Origin: a virus
Length of the DNA: 42,828 nt
Strand: one strand, 5' to 3'
IMG/VR virus record: IMGVR_UViG_3300040959_000451
Coordinates: 1-42,828 of that record
Both the position numbers and the translations under genes were made by a program. Below, piece by piece: positions 24,654 to 38,501 of the stretch. Positions within the stretch are counted from its first letter, which is position 1. Every line of letters starts with the position of its first letter. A model generated the notes under the pieces. That model was not told the DNA's origin. It saw only the letters and a list, made by a program, of their open reading frames with translations, and searched no databases.

Positions 24654-24674
24654 TTAGATTGGAGATTGAAAAAT

Positions 24675-25256
24675 ATGGCACTACAAGGGTATTACGTTAA
24701 GCATTTAAAGCGACATGATGTACGAGATTTTATAGAGAGTAACCACTATTCAAAAAGCATAAACGGCTGCATAGCTGATTACTGCTTTGGCTTATTTAAC
24801 AAGGATGGTGTGATGGTTGGTGCTATGTTTTATGGCAGAATGGCAATGGCTAACCAGTGGAAACGGTTTTCTGATAACCCGGATAACGTAATAGAGTTAA
24901 GGCGCTTGTGTTGCATTGATAGCACACCAAAAAACGCTGAAAGCTTCTTTATAGGAAAAACACTTAGAATGCTGAGGAAGTTGTGGAGAAAAAACGGCGT
25001 TGTAGTGTCATACGCAGACAAGGAGTATAATCATGAGGGTACAATTTATAAAGCATCAAACTTCAAAATGATTGGTGAAGTTAAAGGCGCTAAAGTTATT
25101 TATTGGAATGGTAAGCGATACCACGACAAGACAATTAGAACGAAATACAAAGGGGAGTTAAAGCCATTTGCAAAAAGGGTTAAGCATGCCTTAGAGTCAG
25201 GGGATGCTTTTTATAAAACTACAGCTGGTAAGTACACTTATATTTACAATCTCTAA
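24675..25256 (+). CDS. Mom-like DNA modification protein (GNAT fold)
   Basis: I start at the ATG of 24675; GGAGATTG lies upstream and an earlier TTG at 24666 overlaps it. The 193-residue protein has the layout of phage Mu Mom relatives: SNHYSKSINGCIADYCFGLF, VGAMFYGRMAMANQW, NVIELRRLCCIDSTPKNAES, and above all VVSYADKEYNHEGTIYKASN followed by FKMIG. Mom is a GNAT-like enzyme that converts adenine to N6-carbamoylmethyladenine, protecting DNA from restriction. The conserved Tyr/Asp and His positions in YADxxxNHEGTIY are present. The gene stands alone on the plus strand and overlaps the MuF gene tail to tail by four bases. Function is inferred from similarity by eye. Confidence 0.75.
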   Translation: MALQGYYVKHLKRHDVRDFIESNHYSKSINGCIADYCFGLFNKDGVMVGAMFYGRMAMANQWKRFSDNPDNVIELRRLCCIDSTPKNAESFFIGKTLRMLRKLWRKNGVVVSYADKEYNHEGTIYKASNFKMIGEVKGAKVIYWNGKRYHDKTIRTKYKGELKPFAKRVKHALESGDAFYKTTAGKYTYIYNL

Positions 25257-26314
25257 GACGTCCTACCAACCCCAGCGCGCCACGTTTTCTTCTGTTGGCG
25301 CATTTTCTCTATTAAACTTTCCATTACAACTTCGCCAGTTTTTCTATTCACTAAGATTGGAGATTGAGAGCAGAGACAGTTAATGCCAAAGCCAGACTCA
25401 GAATAAAAGGCTTCTACTTCCTGCAAAGTATAAATCTCAGAATGTTTTGCCACGTGGTTAGGGCGGCTTGTCATCGCCAACGCACTAAACCAAAGCTGCT
25501 TTTGCACAAATGGTGAGTTGCCGTAAATGTCTTTGTTTATTTCTTTTGTCTTAGCTCGTTGCGCTGTACGATATGCGCCCATAATTTCAGTACGTGATAT
25601 GCGTTGTGCGCGACTAAAGCCAACACCGACACGCTTAGCAACGTCCTGTGTTATTTGCCTAATACCCAAACCGCTAGCCATACCCTTTGTAAGAGTTTGG
25701 TAAAGGTCTTTTCTCATACCATCGCTAAGCCCCTTCATCTCATTAAATGTGCGAGCATAAACTAAACCGAGTGATTGAACTTGTTGCGGGTTAAACGCGT
25801 CCGCATCTAACTGTCTAATCATCATCGCTATTTCATCACCAACAACGCTAGGCTCAGCCATGTTTTTAGACGATTGGATGGTATCGCGTATCGCATCGTT
25901 AAATGCGCTTGATAAGTACGATTGATAAAACCAATTCTGCGGCTTGCGTCCGGTAATCGACTCTAACAGCTCGTTATAAAGTAAACGCTCAATAAATGCG
26001 TTAATTGAATCGTAACGCTCAGTTGATACGTCATAACTATAAAAGGTTTTGTTAGCTACAACTTCATTGGAGCGCTCACCTTTATCATTTAGAGGCCACC
26101 AAAAAGACATACGATTACTGTTAGCAGATGCAACACGCTGAATATCTTTTTGCTCAGCAACTAACGATTTAACCGCTTTATTAATGCGCTCGAACCGTTT
26201 TTTCAATTCGACTTGAGCGCGTTTTAGATTACCTTTCTGATTCGCCGGGTCTGCTGCATCACGAGGAATGACAGGGTATGCACTAATCTGGCGTATTTTT
26301 TTCATCTGAATCAT
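25253..26314 (-). CDS. Phage head morphogenesis protein, MuF / SPP1 gp7-like
   Basis: The 353-residue protein follows the portal gene and overlaps it by 32 bases. Residues about 215-330 hold the MuF core: GFSRAQRISRTEIMGAYRTA, then AMTSRPNHVAKHSEIYTLQE and GFGINCLCSQSPILV, the last being the conserved CxC end of the domain. MuF proteins enter the prohead in small numbers beside the portal. The start may be the ATG at 26314 or the one at 26305. No toxin-like extension follows the MuF core. Confidence 0.85.
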   Translation of the reverse strand: MIQMKKIRQISAYPVIPRDAADPANQKGNLKRAQVELKKRFERINKAVKSLVAEQKDIQRVASANSNRMSFWWPLNDKGERSNEVVANKTFYSYDVSTERYDSINAFIERLLYNELLESITGRKPQNWFYQSYLSSAFNDAIRDTIQSSKNMAEPSVVGDEIAMMIRQLDADAFNPQQVQSLGLVYARTFNEMKGLSDGMRKDLYQTLTKGMASGLGIRQITQDVAKRVGVGFSRAQRISRTEIMGAYRTAQRAKTKEINKDIYGNSPFVQKQLWFSALAMTSRPNHVAKHSEIYTLQEVEAFYSESGFGINCLCSQSPILVNRKTGEVVMESLIEKMRQQKKTWRAGVGRTS

Positions 26315-27656
26315 CGTCTAAATTTAGATCTTCTTTTGGGTCGTAATCAGTATCAGGTTTATCAGGTTCAGAGCCGCCAATTTGTCTAATTTCTTCCATG
26401 GTCCACGGAGCCTCTTGCCCAGCTCTAAATGCTTGTTCATTCTGGCTAGTCATCTTGCCAGCGTTATCTAGCTTTTCGGTAGTGCTAGGCTCGCCAATAT
26501 CAGGCCAGCACACCTTAAATTCACCGCTTGACGGCTTAGGAAGTAAACCCAAACCAACCAACCACGATAAAAACTTATGAATGTCATTACTATATTTCTT
26601 TTGCCACTTTTTAAGGCGCTTGGTAAATGCTGAGCTGTTCTGCGTACTTGCTCGCTCACCAGTCATAAAGCCAACCAACTCAGTAAATGACACACCTCGG
26701 CTTGCACATGCTTCAACCACACAAATTTCCCATGCTGATTTAGGGTCTTGCAGTTGAGTTTGCAAGCTTGTGACATTTACACCAGCCATTCGTAATGCTG
26801 AATTAAAGTTATCGTTAAAGTCGTCTAACGCTTCATCAATAACCTCTTTCTTAGCATTAAACGCCTTTGCAGCCTCTGCGTTGTTAGCGCTTAGAATGTA
26901 CTTTTGCATAGCATTTTTACGATAACCTTCACTAGATGCACCACGTACTTTGTTAGCGTCAAATAACGCGTTAAAAGCTGGCTCTAGTACTGATTCACCA
27001 TAAATGGTTGCGCCTACTGCATTGGTAATAACTTTTACACGGCTATAGTGTAATGTGTGCTGCTCTGCGTTAGTTGTTTGTCTGCCGCTTAACTGTGACG
27101 GCTGCAACTTATAACTCAAAGGTTTGTTGTAGTTTGGGCTGCTGTAATCCGCGTCATACTCTTGATTTGCTTCACATTCCAATTCATACCAAGGATTTAT
27201 TGCAATTATGCGCCTACCTTGCGTTATTGGGTTTTCTAGCTTGTTTTCTGTTGGCTCAGATATAACCGGTACAATAGTCGAGTATTGACCAACATCAGCC
27301 ATCTTAAAAGCAGTTTCAAAAACGCGCCACAAATCAAAATCAGTAACTAATTTTTTAACTGCTTTCTCAAATTGAGTATCTTGAGGCGTATCTTCATCAC
27401 CATCTACAATAAATGGATCATCAGAAAAGCAGCGCTCAGGGATAATATCGACAATCGCATTAAAGAAACCACCGCGACGATATGCGTTATATAAATGATT
27501 AAAATCTAGCGCATCAGGATAGCCATATGATGCAGAATCATTTCGGTTAGTGTCACCAAAATTAACCGGAGCACTAGGTATAATTGAGTTAAGTGGCCTA
27601 CGCTGATTTTGTCGCATATTAGCCACGAATGTTTTATTTAGAGTATTTGCAGACAT
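26283..27656 (-). CDS. Portal protein, DUF1073-type
   Basis: The 457-residue protein has the portal pattern: GGFFNAIVDIIPERCFSDDP near residue 62, KMADVGQYSTIVPVI, LHYSRVKVITNAVGATIYGE followed by SVLEPAFNALFDANK, and an acidic C-terminal tail (DPKEDLNLDDDSDEKNTPD). This is the DUF1073 group of dodecameric portals. It lies on the minus strand more than 11 kb from the terminase genes and far from the capsid genes. Its start codon directly follows a hairpin and T run, as for the protease gene, and no standard ribosome site is present. Confidence 0.9.
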   Translation of the reverse strand: MSANTLNKTFVANMRQNQRRPLNSIIPSAPVNFGDTNRNDSASYGYPDALDFNHLYNAYRRGGFFNAIVDIIPERCFSDDPFIVDGDEDTPQDTQFEKAVKKLVTDFDLWRVFETAFKMADVGQYSTIVPVISEPTENKLENPITQGRRIIAINPWYELECEANQEYDADYSSPNYNKPLSYKLQPSQLSGRQTTNAEQHTLHYSRVKVITNAVGATIYGESVLEPAFNALFDANKVRGASSEGYRKNAMQKYILSANNAEAAKAFNAKKEVIDEALDDFNDNFNSALRMAGVNVTSLQTQLQDPKSAWEICVVEACASRGVSFTELVGFMTGERASTQNSSAFTKRLKKWQKKYSNDIHKFLSWLVGLGLLPKPSSGEFKVCWPDIGEPSTTEKLDNAGKMTSQNEQAFRAGQEAPWTMEEIRQIGGSEPDKPDTDYDPKEDLNLDDDSDEKNTPD

Positions 27657-27723: not shown

Positions 27724-28269
27724 CTAGGTACCTAAACTTATAAGTTCATTTCTATCAACCAAACTAACAATGCAAGGCATTTTTGATGGCTTGAAAATAA
27801 CAAACATACTCCCTTTGGTGTTTCCATTTACTTTTTCGTCAGTTAATGGGTGGTAAAAGCTTAATCGTCCACCTGTAACAATACGTATTTCTGATATTTC
27901 ACTAATTGGAAGCCATTGAGCATCAAGGGTTGCAGGTACCAGCAAAACAGTTGTAACTCCTTTTGACTTTTCCTCGATAGCCTTTTTCATGAATTTCTTG
28001 ATGTAACCTTTACCGTAAGGAGGATTAACCCAAACACTCAAAGTGTCAACATAATTCAAGTTCTTGCACTCAGTTATATTTAGGTACCAATCAACAGAGA
28101 GTGCGTCATCTTCTTTTGTGAGGTAATTATCAACCTTGTGATTTTTTGAGTTTGCAGCAGCATCTAAGTTGAATCTAAACTCCTTATCAAGCGCCTGAAA
28201 AATTAAAGGGTCGGTACCCCAACTATTTTTCATATCATCATCTAGTTCGCCACTAATTAAATCACTCAT
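27724..28269 (-). CDS. DNA N6-adenine methyltransferase (phage Dam family)
   Basis: I start at the ATG of 28269, after GGTGAGG; the frame is open for seven more codons. The 181-residue enzyme has WGTDPLIFQALDKEFRFNLD then AAANSKNHK, a dal...W segment (DDALSVDWYLN), and the catalytic motif NPPYGKG near residue 90. These are features of the phage N-6-adenine methyltransferase family (PF05869; T1 and similar Dam enzymes). It is last in the replication operon, overlaps the gene before it by eight bases, and could protect against restriction together with the Mom-like protein. Confidence 0.85.
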   Translation of the reverse strand: MSDLISGELDDDMKNSWGTDPLIFQALDKEFRFNLDAAANSKNHKVDNYLTKEDDALSVDWYLNITECKNLNYVDTLSVWVNPPYGKGYIKKFMKKAIEEKSKGVTTVLLVPATLDAQWLPISEISEIRIVTGGRLSFYHPLTDEKVNGNTKGSMFVIFKPSKMPCIVSLVDRNELISLGT

Positions 28270-28414
28270 CCTCACCCCCATTACAAACAAAAACCTTATC
28301 GCTCGTTACATCAATAAGCGCATTAATTAACTGCTGAGCGACAAGTGGCGATACGTGACCAAAGTCATTTAAATCCGACTGCGCTAACTGTATTAATTCA
28401 TCGTAATTTTTCAT
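28262..28414 (-). CDS. Small acidic protein (50 aa)
   Basis: The ATG at 28414 overlaps the upstream stop (ATGA), and the TGA lies eight bases inside the methylase gene. The product (MKNYDELIQLAQSDLNDFGH then VSPLVAQQLINALIDV) is helical and acidic, with GGEDE at the end. Its coding region supplies the ribosome site of the methylase gene. Function unknown. Confidence 0.6.
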   Translation of the reverse strand: MKNYDELIQLAQSDLNDFGHVSPLVAQQLINALIDVTSDKVFVCNGGEDE

Positions 28415-34619: not shown

Positions 34620-35378
34620 TTACATTTCAACAATCAATCTTTCCGCTTGAAACTTTGCTTCATCAGTTTCACAAACGGCGTGCATTTTAATTTTCTTGTG
34701 CTTAATCGCGCTGTAAATAAAATTAATATTGTGCGGCATGAAAAAACATATTGTGTTTTTACCCTCAACGCGATTTAGTTTATTTGCCGTAAACCAGTTT
34801 TCGCATAAATAAACATCACCTTCAATTTGCCCGAATATAGCGCAACTACCGTAAAGAAATTTCTTTTTATATGGTTGTGACTCATAACCAGCACCGCGCA
34901 ATTGCATAAGAGATACAGGCGTTGAATTCAGGTCAGTCAAGATAGCTATCTGACTAGCGCCATGAAAGTAAATGTTTTCATCTTGATAACTTCTAACATC
35001 ACACTTTCTTAAAAACTCTGTAATTTCATCAATCGAAAAAGCTGCCTTGTTAAGTGGTAGCCTAGCTGCCTTTGGCCTAGCTTTTTTAACCTCGCCTGTC
35101 GTTATTTCGGTGTCTTTAATATCAGCGCCTAAATATTTAGCGGCTTGCTTGAAATCCCATCCGTTAATGTCTTGCAGAAAATTAATAACGTCACCGCTTT
35201 CACCGCAACCAAAACAGTGATAAAACTGGTCGTTACTGTTAACTGAAAAGCTAGCTGTTTTTTCATTATGAAACGGGCAGCAACCAAAATAATCCTTCCC
35301 GTGCTTCTTTAGCGGCACAAAGTTTTCGATAATATCGACAATATCAACGCGCGCTTTTAGGTTATCAATATCAATCAT
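34620..35378 (-). CDS. CHC2-type DNA primase
   Basis: The 252-residue protein begins with a DnaG zinc-binding domain (FVPLKKHGKDYFGCCPFHNE, KTASFSVN, then YHCFGCGESGDVINFL) giving the CHC2 cysteine and histidine ligands. The second half has a shortened TOPRIM-like pattern (VYLCENWFTANKLNRVEGKN; MHAVCETDEAKFQAERL). The RNA polymerase core of full-length DnaG is reduced, as in phage primases that work with a separate ATPase, here the DUF3987 protein encoded just upstream. Confidence 0.85.
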   Translation of the reverse strand: MIDIDNLKARVDIVDIIENFVPLKKHGKDYFGCCPFHNEKTASFSVNSNDQFYHCFGCGESGDVINFLQDINGWDFKQAAKYLGADIKDTEITTGEVKKARPKAARLPLNKAAFSIDEITEFLRKCDVRSYQDENIYFHGASQIAILTDLNSTPVSLMQLRGAGYESQPYKKKFLYGSCAIFGQIEGDVYLCENWFTANKLNRVEGKNTICFFMPHNINFIYSAIKHKKIKMHAVCETDEAKFQAERLIVEM

Positions 35379-35380
35379 AA

Positions 35381-36907
35381 TTACTCGGCCATTTTAGGGT
35401 TAATGCGAATAAATCCGTCATTTTTATCGCTGTACCAACATATATTTCTGTTCTGCAATACTGGCATTAGCTTATCGTGGAAGTGAGATGTTATTTTTGT
35501 CTGGCTCTTAAACGCCTTTGCTTTTTTGATTGAGTCTATAAGGGTGCGCGCCTTAACTTCAATCTTACCTTTAGTAACGTAACCAGATAACGTGCCAGCG
35601 ATATGTTTTATTTGCGACTCATCACCGCCAAAACCTTCACTATCAGCTGTTTTAACGAATGTTTTTAATAGCTCGCAGTAAATGCTATAAGCGCGCAAAA
35701 CAGTATCATGACTAATAGTTAGTTTTGTCACTGAGTGCTGAAAATTATCAATTGCGTGTAGGCTAGCTGCAATTTTCATTACTTGTTTATCCATCTTACC
35801 AAGAAAACCAATCATTAAATTACTTGAGTATTTACCACCATCAGCCATTAGTGGCTCAAGTTCGTTTTTCTTTTGTTGAATAAAATTTTTAGTATCTTCG
35901 GTAATGTTTAAAATGGTTTTCTCTGACATGATTATATTTCGCATAATCTCGCCAAATCTTGTTTTCGTTTCGCTTCTTACTGGTGTGAATTTAGTATGAT
36001 CGCGATTACCAAGCATATGTGGCTCATAACCAAATAAGAATCGCTCTGTTAAGCCATTCTCACGCTCTGACATGCTCAGTATGGCCTTAACTGTTTCATA
36101 TTGAGCAAGAACAGCAATTCCACCGCGAATATGAATAGACGGCATCGAGCGAGTGATACGGACCATGCTTACATAACCATTATCCCAACCCTTCAGAATT
36201 GGCTCATTGTTTGGCGCTTTCTTGGCATCACCATACGCCAGCCCGATACTTGTTAAGATTGATTGTGCTTCATCGGAAATGATATTAAACATACCAGTTT
36301 GCTTTGCAGCCTCGTTACAAATAGCCTCCGGTGTAGCGTCCGTGAAATACATATTGTAAATAGGGAATCGCGACAGTTTTTCTTCTAGTTCGGCAATGGT
36401 ATCGCGTAAATTCATTTTTTCTTCACGGCCTGTTGAACTTTTTAGTTCTTTTTCTGCTTCCTCAATATCCTGGAGTATTTCACGGCGGCGCTTTTTGTTG
36501 CCAGTATTAAGCTCATCAACAGCGGCTAATATCGGACTTGTAAAGAAATTACTAACACCAGTTTTACCGGTTGATGGTGGCTGAGCTGTTGCAATATAAA
36601 GGTTAGTTGATAGCTCACCAAAGTAATTAACATAAAAGCTTTTGCACATAGCCGCAGCAACACAACCAAGACCATGTAAATACACGCTAGACTCAGGGAA
36701 TTGAACTTGCGCGGCAACCTCTTTAGCCAAATTGCTAAGCGCATCATCGCGACTGTGATCAATTAAGTGCATGGTCGAATAAAGGCGATCATCTTCGGTC
36801 AGAATTGGTTCGGGCCAATACTCTCTATGAGTTGCTGCACCGCTCTCTGGACCATCTTTAAATTGACCAAAGTTAGCAATGTTACCCATGTTAATATTCT
36901 GAGCCAT
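35381..36907 (-). CDS. DUF3987 primase-associated ATPase / helicase-like
   Basis: The 508-residue protein has a Walker A motif in IATAQPPSTGKTGVSNFF (around residue 110) and a Walker B-like MFNIISDEAQSILTS. A central coiled coil (KKRRREILQDIEEAEKELKS) precedes it. RSMPSIHIRGGIAVLAQYET and ENGLTERFLFGYEPHMLGNR are typical of the DUF3987/YfjI family, which pairs with CHC2 primases in plasmids and phages and may unwind DNA at the origin. It is the second gene of the replication operon, right after the ribbon-helix-helix gene. Confidence 0.8.
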   Translation of the reverse strand: MAQNINMGNIANFGQFKDGPESGAATHREYWPEPILTEDDRLYSTMHLIDHSRDDALSNLAKEVAAQVQFPESSVYLHGLGCVAAAMCKSFYVNYFGELSTNLYIATAQPPSTGKTGVSNFFTSPILAAVDELNTGNKKRRREILQDIEEAEKELKSSTGREEKMNLRDTIAELEEKLSRFPIYNMYFTDATPEAICNEAAKQTGMFNIISDEAQSILTSIGLAYGDAKKAPNNEPILKGWDNGYVSMVRITRSMPSIHIRGGIAVLAQYETVKAILSMSERENGLTERFLFGYEPHMLGNRDHTKFTPVRSETKTRFGEIMRNIIMSEKTILNITEDTKNFIQQKKNELEPLMADGGKYSSNLMIGFLGKMDKQVMKIAASLHAIDNFQHSVTKLTISHDTVLRAYSIYCELLKTFVKTADSEGFGGDESQIKHIAGTLSGYVTKGKIEVKARTLIDSIKKAKAFKSQTKITSHFHDKLMPVLQNRNICWYSDKNDGFIRINPKMAE

Positions 36908-36910
36908 AAA

Positions 36911-37150
36911 TTAACACTCCACATTTTTAACTGAGTTTCTGATTTGCTTGTCAGACTCAGCAATAAATGACGTTACATTTTCTTTCTGATTGTCATTTAG
37001 TAGTCGCAGCATCTTATCAAGACCATAAGCGGTTGCTGCTCTAATAACCTGACTTCTTTCCATGCTAGTCAATTCAGAAATGCGTAAAATATCCTCGTGC
37101 ATACCCTGGCTGAATTTAACTTTCGCATTCGACATAGCTACTTTCTTCAT
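36911..37150 (-). CDS. Ribbon-helix-helix DNA-binding protein
   Basis: I start at the ATG of 37150, seven bases after GGAG; the frame is open to 37189. The 79-residue product has AKVKFSQGM (strand), HEDILRISELTS (helix) and MERSQVIRAATAYGLDKML (helix), the MetJ/Arc/CopG pattern. It is the first gene of the replication operon and is adjacent to the iteron arrays at 37277-37610. Such proteins bind arrays of short direct repeats as repressors, plasmid copy-control or partition adaptors, so it may control the origin and its own promoter. Confidence 0.75.
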   Translation of the reverse strand: MKKVAMSNAKVKFSQGMHEDILRISELTSMERSQVIRAATAYGLDKMLRLLNDNQKENVTSFIAESDKQIRNSVKNVEC

Positions 37151-37276
37151 CTTAAAACTCCAAAAACTTAAATTGTTAACGTGATACATGGTGACACATA
37201 AAACAAATTACAACCAATTCAAATTAACGATTGAAAATCTACCATTTCACCGAAAAAACAGATTAAAAAGCGTTTT

Positions 37277-37610
37277 CTGTGGGTATATTTTGCCGCTGTG
37301 GGTATGCTTGCGGTATGGCTACGGTATACTCGTGAGTATGAAAAAAAGCTGTAGACCGTTGATTTATATATATTTTCTCAAAAATGGGTATGAAAACGCT
37401 ATTTTTGCCGTGTATACACATATAAAAATAAAATTAATGACAATAAAAAATAGTGAGAAATAAATAAAAATACAAAAACATTGAAATTCATACCCACAGA
37501 TAGTAAATAATTAATAAAATACTAATAAATACATACACTTACACTATATATATACATACTCATTCTCATACCAATACCATACCAATACCATACCCACAGC
37601 ATACTCACAG
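37277..37610. other. Origin-like region: inverted arrays of 11-bp iterons
   Basis: The right array is four tandem 11-mers (37567-37577, 37578-37588, 37589-37599, 37600-37610): CATACCAATAC twice, CATACCCACAG, CATACTCACAG, with outliers at 37489-37499 and 37555. The left array is the reverse complement type: CTGTGGGTATA (37277-37287), CTGTGGGTATG (37296-37306), CTTGCGGTATG (37307-37317), GCTACGGTATA (37318-37328), CTCGTGAGTATG (37329-37340), and ATGGGTATG at 37384. About 150 bases of very AT-rich sequence lie between. It sits upstream of both the replication operon and the plus-strand genes at 37689, as expected for a replication origin or centromere-like site. Confidence 0.75.
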
Positions 37611-37688
37611 ATAAATTAAATAAATATTTATTGATTTATTTAAATTTTTATTTAACATTAAACAAACAAAAACTTTAGGGGGTTAAAA
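37611..37688. other. AT-rich leader before 37689
   Basis: Nearly pure A/T sequence with TTTATT and AAATA runs. TTGATT, 17 bases and AACATT could be a weak promoter. It carries the ribosome site AGGGGGT just before the next gene. No reading frame is supported; it may extend the unwinding element of the iteron region. Confidence 0.4.
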
Positions 37689-37925
37689 ATGAATCCGTTT
37701 GAAAAAACATCTGTAACAGGCAAGAAAGGCTTTTACTTTGATCAGTTGTCAGAAATACAAGCTGGTGTAAGCAACGCTAAAATTTTAAAAGTTATGGATG
37801 GAGACAAATTACACTCAGCAAGAATGTACATAAATAAATACTATTCTGGCACTGGTGAGAATTACAAGACAAAGTTTGTTGACGGTAATCTATGGGTTGT
37901 AAATCTTGGATCTGAAAATAAATAA
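37689..37925 (+). CDS. Hypothetical protein (78 aa)
   Basis: First plus-strand gene after the iteron region, with AGGGGGTTA upstream. The product (MNPFEKTSVTGKKGFYFDQL, then AGVSNAKILKVMDGDKL) is small, soluble and basic. No family recognised. Expression probably begins in the AT-rich origin region. Confidence 0.65.
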   Translation: MNPFEKTSVTGKKGFYFDQLSEIQAGVSNAKILKVMDGDKLHSARMYINKYYSGTGENYKTKFVDGNLWVVNLGSENK

Positions 37926-37948
37926 ACTTAATTAATGGAGATTGAAAA

Positions 37949-38182
37949 ATGAAAAATAGCACAATCAAGAAGGTAAGCTTTATCACTACTTTGGTTGTTT
38001 TATGTGTAGGGTTTGTTGCGCTAGTTGATTACTTCGCATCAAACATGAAAGACGCACCTAGTTACATGGAAGCTTATAACGCTGTCGGCTCTGTTTTGCT
38101 GATACCGTTTATGCTTATTGCTGCATTGGTTGTTTATTATTTTGATGTTGTTATTGATGAGGTGGCTGGCGATGATGAGTAA
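37949..38182 (+). CDS. Small two-helix membrane protein (77 aa)
   Basis: GGAGATTG lies upstream of the ATG. The product has two clear hydrophobic helices (FITTLVVLCVGFVALVDYF and LLIPFMLIAALVVYYFDVV), a polar loop and an acidic tail (DEVAGDDE). It is holin-like in topology but lies among early-type genes, so a membrane regulator or exclusion role is equally likely. Confidence 0.65.
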   Translation: MKNSTIKKVSFITTLVVLCVGFVALVDYFASNMKDAPSYMEAYNAVGSVLLIPFMLIAALVVYYFDVVIDEVAGDDE

Positions 38183-38501
38183 AAAATACCAACTAAGCAA
38201 AAAAGGCATTGAGCGCCTAGAGCAATTTAAGCGTGATGTTGTGAATGGTGATTGTCAAATCTTTCCTGAGAAATGCAGAGGTAAAATTGTTTACTTTAAG
38301 GTTCATTCAGATTCTGGACTAACGTGCGTGTTTAACTTGAACGAAAGTAAAGTTAAAGAAAATGCAATTAAAATGATTGATAAAACTTTGACTGGTGAAG
38401 TTGAGCGAAGAATAATGACGCATGACGGTAGTAAGTATTTTTGTGTGGACGATGGTTGTGCGCTACTTGATAGCGATGTGGAGGAAGTTAGCAATGCCTA
38501 G
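38172..38501 (+). CDS. Hypothetical protein (109 aa)
   Basis: I start at the first of two adjacent ATGs (38172, 38175), after GAGGTGG, overlapping the stop of the membrane protein gene. The frame extends upstream in the ORF but those residues overlap that gene. The product is charged and soluble (KKGIERLEQFKRDVVNGDCQ; GKIVYFKVHSDSGLTCVFNL) with two late cysteines (FCVDDGCALL). Function unknown. Confidence 0.6.
   Translation: MMSKKYQLSKKGIERLEQFKRDVVNGDCQIFPEKCRGKIVYFKVHSDSGLTCVFNLNESKVKENAIKMIDKTLTGEVERRIMTHDGSKYFCVDDGCALLDSDVEEVSNA

Follow-up and report, generated by a model that had tools for sequence, protein, structure and literature searches.

The region at 37277–37610 of the window, by which we mean the whole stretch of DNA analysed, is probably a replication origin bound by a self-loading DUF3987 helicase-initiator, and the neighbouring ribbon-helix-helix (RHH)-like protein would be a replaceable regulator. 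In favour of an origin, two iteron arrays face each other far above chance and are conserved in relatives, and arrays with other core letters stand upstream of helicases sharing 33–49% identity, with a spacing common to several groups. Against it, T1-like phages carry the same helicase family without visible arrays in the stretches searched.

Genome Context of the Intergenic Region

The window was a virus record of 42,828 bases with siphophage structural genes. The intergenic region 37151–37688 formed the gap between two divergent operons (Table 1). The left operon, on the minus strand, consisted of the RHH-like small gene, the DUF3987 helicase gene, and the CHC2 primase gene; the right operon, on the plus strand, consisted of small genes, with P0002 as the first. 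Among the ORFs scanned in the window, no gene for a DNA polymerase, a plasmid-type Rep initiator, or a ParA/ParM-like motor was found. A DNA-level search of cultured phages with 36600–38400 gave no match, tblastn of the RHH-like protein and P0002 gave no match, and no close helicase relative was found in the genome contigs scanned.

P0002 was a homologue of TW1_039; the latter is encoded directly upstream of the TW1 helicase, and P0002 lies beyond the arrays. A Mom-like DNA modification protein and a Dam-type methyltransferase were encoded at 24666–25256 and 27724–28290, and the phage DNA may therefore be modified. The replication operon ended, on the minus strand, in portal and head-morphogenesis genes (25253–27656), distant from the capsid genes (1.5–4.2 kb) and the terminase (39–41 kb).

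Table 1. Features of the putative origin region and adjacent genes (positions in the window).
Feature	Position	Strand	Remarks
CHC2 zinc-finger DNA primase	34620–35378	-	
DUF3987 helicase, MCM/AAA+-like, with modelled C-terminal winged helix (about residues 429–502)	35381–36907	-	putative iteron-binding initiator
RHH-like small protein	36911–37150	-	probable autoregulator of the replication operon
Candidate operator for the RHH-like protein, made up of two GTGWCAC-like sites 10 bp apart	37181–37200	-	promoter of its operon, directly upstream of the RHH-like start; TATGTGTCACCATGTATCAC
Left outer array, five iterons, CTGTGGGTATR-type	37277–37340	+	kept in L015–L017
Left iteron 1	37277–37287	+	CTGTGGGTATA
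Left iteron 2	37296–37306	+	CTGTGGGTATG
Left iteron 3	37307–37317	+	CTTGCGGTATG
Left iteron 4	37318–37328	+	GCTACGGTATA
Left iteron 5	37330–37340	+	TCGTGAGTATG
Extra unit, opposite orientation	37325–37336		overlaps its neighbour
Left inner (detached) iteron	37382–37392	+	AAATGGGTATG; kept in the alignment of four relatives
AT-rich centre between the inner iterons	37393–37488		candidate melting region
Right inner (detached) iteron	37489–37499	-	CATACCCACAG on the plus strand
Very AT-rich conserved block	37500–37554		TTA-repeat tract in L015–L017, eroded in the window
Right outer array, five iterons	37555–37610	-	
Right outer units	37555–37565, 37567–37577, 37578–37588, 37589–37599, 37600–37610	-	
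P0002, small protein, unnamed family	37689–37925	+	in TW1, family member directly upstream of the helicase

Facing Iteron Arrays

The iterons were GG(G)TATG-type 11-mers, related to CATACCCACAG, and were arranged in two groups pointing at each other. A pattern count gave 13 units in 37250–37640 (390 bp), where the remainder of the window would predict 0.30. In a scan for facing exact 6-mers, the top score of the whole window (7) was found at the arrays, and the best unrelated place scored 6. The facing score of the 520-bp array region was reached by 0 of 200 dinucleotide-preserving shuffles. The facing 11-mer arrays described in the first-pass annotation were confirmed, with five outer units on the left and five on the right, the last four of the latter in perfect 11-bp phase. 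The annotation had placed about 150 bases of AT-rich DNA between them; the DNA was AT-rich, but the size had to be corrected, the outer arrays being about 215 bp apart and the inner units about 96 bp apart.

The cumulative GC-skew minimum of the window was at 37–38 kb. However, the minimum coincided with the gene-strand switch and was rejected as independent evidence of an origin, because it follows gene orientation.

In L009, L024, L031, and L035, both sides had a CTGTAG / AGCCCTTT element between outer and inner units; the window had a single CTGTAG, near 37349.

Close Relatives and the RHH-Like Protein

Four close loci were compared: the window, L015 (on the same contig as L002), L016, and L017 (on the same contig as L003), whose helicases were 85–92% identical. 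A scan for further RHH-like relatives returned only the three contigs known before. The four loci retained the outer units, the inner units, the very AT-rich block, and the block immediately before the RHH-like gene; the remaining spacer sequence differed in the alignment. Conservation of the repeat units with variation of the spacers, which had been proposed earlier as a test, was thus borne out in the four-locus alignment. The gap between the inner units was about 97–118 bp in the four relatives. A sigma-70 scan picked out a single promoter-like site, whereas shuffles had more; our promoter assignment is accordingly limited to the conserved block.

The RHH-like gene adjoined the region in all four close relatives, and its recognition strand, SNAKVKF, was invariant there. 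The RHH-like proteins of these relatives were down to 38% identical to that of the window, with the same iteron. The candidate operator was nearly invariant in the four SNAKVKF loci; L018, which has a different strand, carries another sequence in its place. Binding to tandem sites about 10–11 bp apart is common among RHH dimers. Judged from these sequences, it is more likely that the RHH-like protein binds the operator in its own promoter than the iterons, and we infer that it acts as an autoregulator of the replication operon.

Both the sequence pattern and the helices fitted the RHH assignment. The monomer model had two helices in the right places and no strand; the strand forms only in a dimer. 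Profile and fold searches gave no Pfam, PHROG, NCBIfam, or PDB match confirming the assignment; comparison of the RHH-like profile with ORF56 of pRN1 gave a weak match (E 0.72).

Exchange of the Regulator Gene

The gene immediately upstream of the helicase belonged to unrelated families, namely RHH-like, AP2, YdaS-like HTH, and an unnamed small family that takes in P0002 and TW1_039. The grouping of the unnamed family is provisional; one profile comparison gave a probability of 53 and E 1.3e-4. In the Klebsiella/E. coli group (helicases 86–100% identical), this position was occupied by AP2, by the unnamed family, or by a third variant, and the TGGGG-type units remained. L042 (AP2) and L101 (an unrelated family) had identical helicases and near-identical arrays up to the outermost right-hand units, beyond which the promoter and regulator were unrelated. 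TW1 and L021 had the same GTAAG units, with regulators 30% identical and helicases 94% identical. The arrays stay when the regulator is exchanged; therefore, the iteron goes with the helicase, or with a factor linked to the helicase, rather than with the small regulator. This pattern suggests that the helicase itself, and not its RHH-like neighbour, reads the repeats, although they could instead be bound by a linked factor.

Structure Model of the DUF3987 Helicase

DUF3987 was earlier predicted as a helicase family (PMC5862659). A model of the helicase built from a 36-sequence alignment had a pLDDT of 88 and a pTM of 0.86. Its last 80 residues were ordered as helix-strand-helix-helix-strand-strand, the element order of a winged helix. 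In Foldseek, MCM subunits and ORC proteins ranked best, and the SaPI5 helicase came 50th (E 0.055). Both MCM and ORC are AAA+ proteins ending in winged helices. The global TM-scores to MCM were low (about 0.35), so that the MCM/AAA+ label gives a class and does not imply a close match. No sequence relative of the helicase was found in the PDB. From the model and by analogy with known initiators, the C-terminal winged helix is the predicted iteron-binding element.

Proposed Mechanism and Alternative Readings

In the proposed mechanism, two helicase rings would load at the two facing arrays and point toward the AT-rich middle. This middle would be melted, and the primase together with the host polymerase would then copy both ways. 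The RHH-like protein would autoregulate the operon at 37181–37200, as one of several unrelated, exchangeable regulators encoded at that position. The plasmid-style replicon suggested by the first-pass annotation agrees with the iterons, the AT-rich interior, the helicase and primase genes, and the conservation of the units in relatives, and this origin-like part of the interpretation was upheld. Its two other parts, iteron binding by the RHH protein and a centromere, were not.

If the RHH-like protein bound the 11-mers, it might recruit the helicase or repress both divergent operons. The adjacent gene in the four close relatives, with SNAKVKF invariant and the iterons the same, fits such binding, as does the tandem spacing that RHH dimers often use. 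However, the RHH-like proteins that share this one iteron are otherwise down to 38% identical, against 85–92% for the helicases; similar arrays occur beside AP2, HTH, and other unrelated regulators and survive regulator exchange; and the promoter has a distinct, conserved operator of the RHH type. Binding of the 11-mers by the RHH-like protein is therefore not favoured and appears unlikely. A centromere-like partition site of the parC/ParR or omega type, to which clusters of 10–11-bp repeats adjoining a possible RHH gene had pointed, is most improbable; it was rejected because the scanned ORFs yielded no ParA/ParM-like motor and relatives carry other genes in place of the RHH-like one. The adjacent genes, moreover, encode a helicase and a primase.

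The region lies between two divergent operons at a strand switch, and the facing arrays might accordingly be the operators of two divergent promoters, unrelated to replication initiation. We regard this purely regulatory role as rather improbable, since the arrays reach far from the conserved promoter-proximal block, the AT-rich interior and the paired inner units are kept, the arrays are retained where promoter, regulator, and divergent gene change, and promoter-like sites were fewer than in shuffles. Very little weight is given to origin iterons read by another protein, either a host factor (DnaA) or a helicase-linked phage replication protein. TGTGGGTAT resembles a DnaA box in part, and further replication proteins are common to these phages; however, the cores vary widely among phages (GTAAG, GGGTA, AAGGA, GTGGGG) and are therefore a poor fit to a fixed host factor, and DUF3987 is the constant neighbour, with a winged helix in its model.

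Comparison with Known Replicons

In SaPI Rep and SCCmec Cch2, the C-terminal domain binds short iterons, and loading as two hexamers has been proposed (PMC7581432). These systems resemble the window in having an AAA+ initiator-helicase with a C-terminal DNA-binding domain (seen in the window by model only), short iterons, a nearby primase, and unrelated small proteins (LP1413, MP) encoded just upstream of the helicase. As in the SaPI/SCC type, the short iterons of the window lay in non-coding DNA next to the helicase operon. However, the SaPI/SCCmec helicases are of the DUF927 or D5 type (D5/Primase_Cterm), and their origin is directly downstream of the helicase gene; neither feature was found in the window, whose helicase is DUF3987 and whose arrays are upstream of the operon. 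In addition, Cch2 has only three 5-nt iterons, and the window has two facing arrays of five or six 11-mers.

The alpha protein of phage P4 binds origin repeats via a winged helix (PMC4234260), as the helicase initiator of the window would. P4 alpha is a primase-helicase fusion, whereas the window has separate helicase and primase genes and another helicase family. By analogy, the putative origin of the window may work like the SaPI and P4 origins, departing from the SaPI kind in origin position and helicase family.

In pRN1, the repressor gene precedes the replication gene (orf56/orf904; PMC4234260). Like the window, pRN1 thus has a small repressor gene directly before that of a replication protein with a C-terminal winged helix; pRN1 has a stem-loop downstream of the Rep gene and no iterons, while the window has iterons. 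Iteron plasmids and lambda-type iterons share with the window in-phase direct repeats adjoining AT-rich DNA. The repeats of the window are shorter, form two facing arrays, and are outside the initiator gene, and, in contrast to iteron plasmids, none of the ORFs scanned was a plasmid-type Rep gene. The parC/ParR and omega/parS systems also have short-repeat clusters beside a possible RHH gene; in the window, no partition motor was found, the arrays face each other around an AT-rich interior, and replication genes are adjacent. Literature searches found no paper describing these origins.

Wider DUF3987 Family

The helicase matched in 1,158 phage records by tblastn, all with less than 60% identity, and 80 loci were obtained by an IMG/VR scan. 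Many of these loci had facing arrays upstream of the helicase with other core letters, including TAGGGT, GGGTAA, TGTGTA, AGTAAG, AAAAGG, TAGGAA, CGTGGG, CGGTAA, GGTAAG, and GGGGTA. Most of the facing arrays were reached by 0 of 30 shuffles. A second facing test on 520-bp regions agreed for most groups; in the AP2 group the strict facing score was weak, because each side also holds inverted pairs. The helicases of the array-bearing groups shared mostly 33–49% identity.

Several groups had one spacing pattern, in which the outer units end in an inverted pair about 10 bp apart, followed inward after 44–48 bp by a pair 8 bp apart, an AT-rich centre of about 80–125 bp, and the mirror image. L037 (core GGGAA), L066 (GTAAG), and L024 (GTAAG) matched this pattern almost base for base, and the window was a simplified version of it. 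In a spacing test allowing any 5-bp band, 106 of 5000 random shifts were equally good or better, and the cores were partly chosen by eye, so that the spacing result is suggestive and not proof.

Five T1-like phages (L056, L060, L064, L070, and L076) had a DUF3987 helicase and no facing arrays within about 4 kb on either side. The TLS paper sought an origin and reported no iterons (PMC11447400).

These loci might belong to a large class of phage origins, which we put forward tentatively and with some doubt. In such a class, the site spacing around an AT-rich, often microsatellite-bearing interior would be kept, the letters would drift with each DUF3987 lineage, the promoter-regulator cassette would be exchanged freely among unrelated DNA-binding folds, and two MCM-like rings would be loaded head to head. 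If true, this loading would be a bacterial-virus parallel of MCM double-ring loading.

The helicase family occurs in more than 1,100 sequenced phage records, including E. coli phages amenable to laboratory work such as Bas79. If the origin reading is true, many polymerase-less siphophages can be tested directly for their origin, initiator, and replicon specificity. Natural exchange of the regulators helps to tell which protein reads which site. The drift of the core letters could have an effect similar to plasmid incompatibility, acting between phages or their satellites.

A perfect microsatellite tract was present inside the arrays of most relatives [L009 (TW1), L021, L010, L016, L017, L020, and L066]. 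The microsatellite unit differed between close phages, with (GTAA)9 in TW1 and (AAC)12 in L021 at the same place, their helicases being 94% identical.
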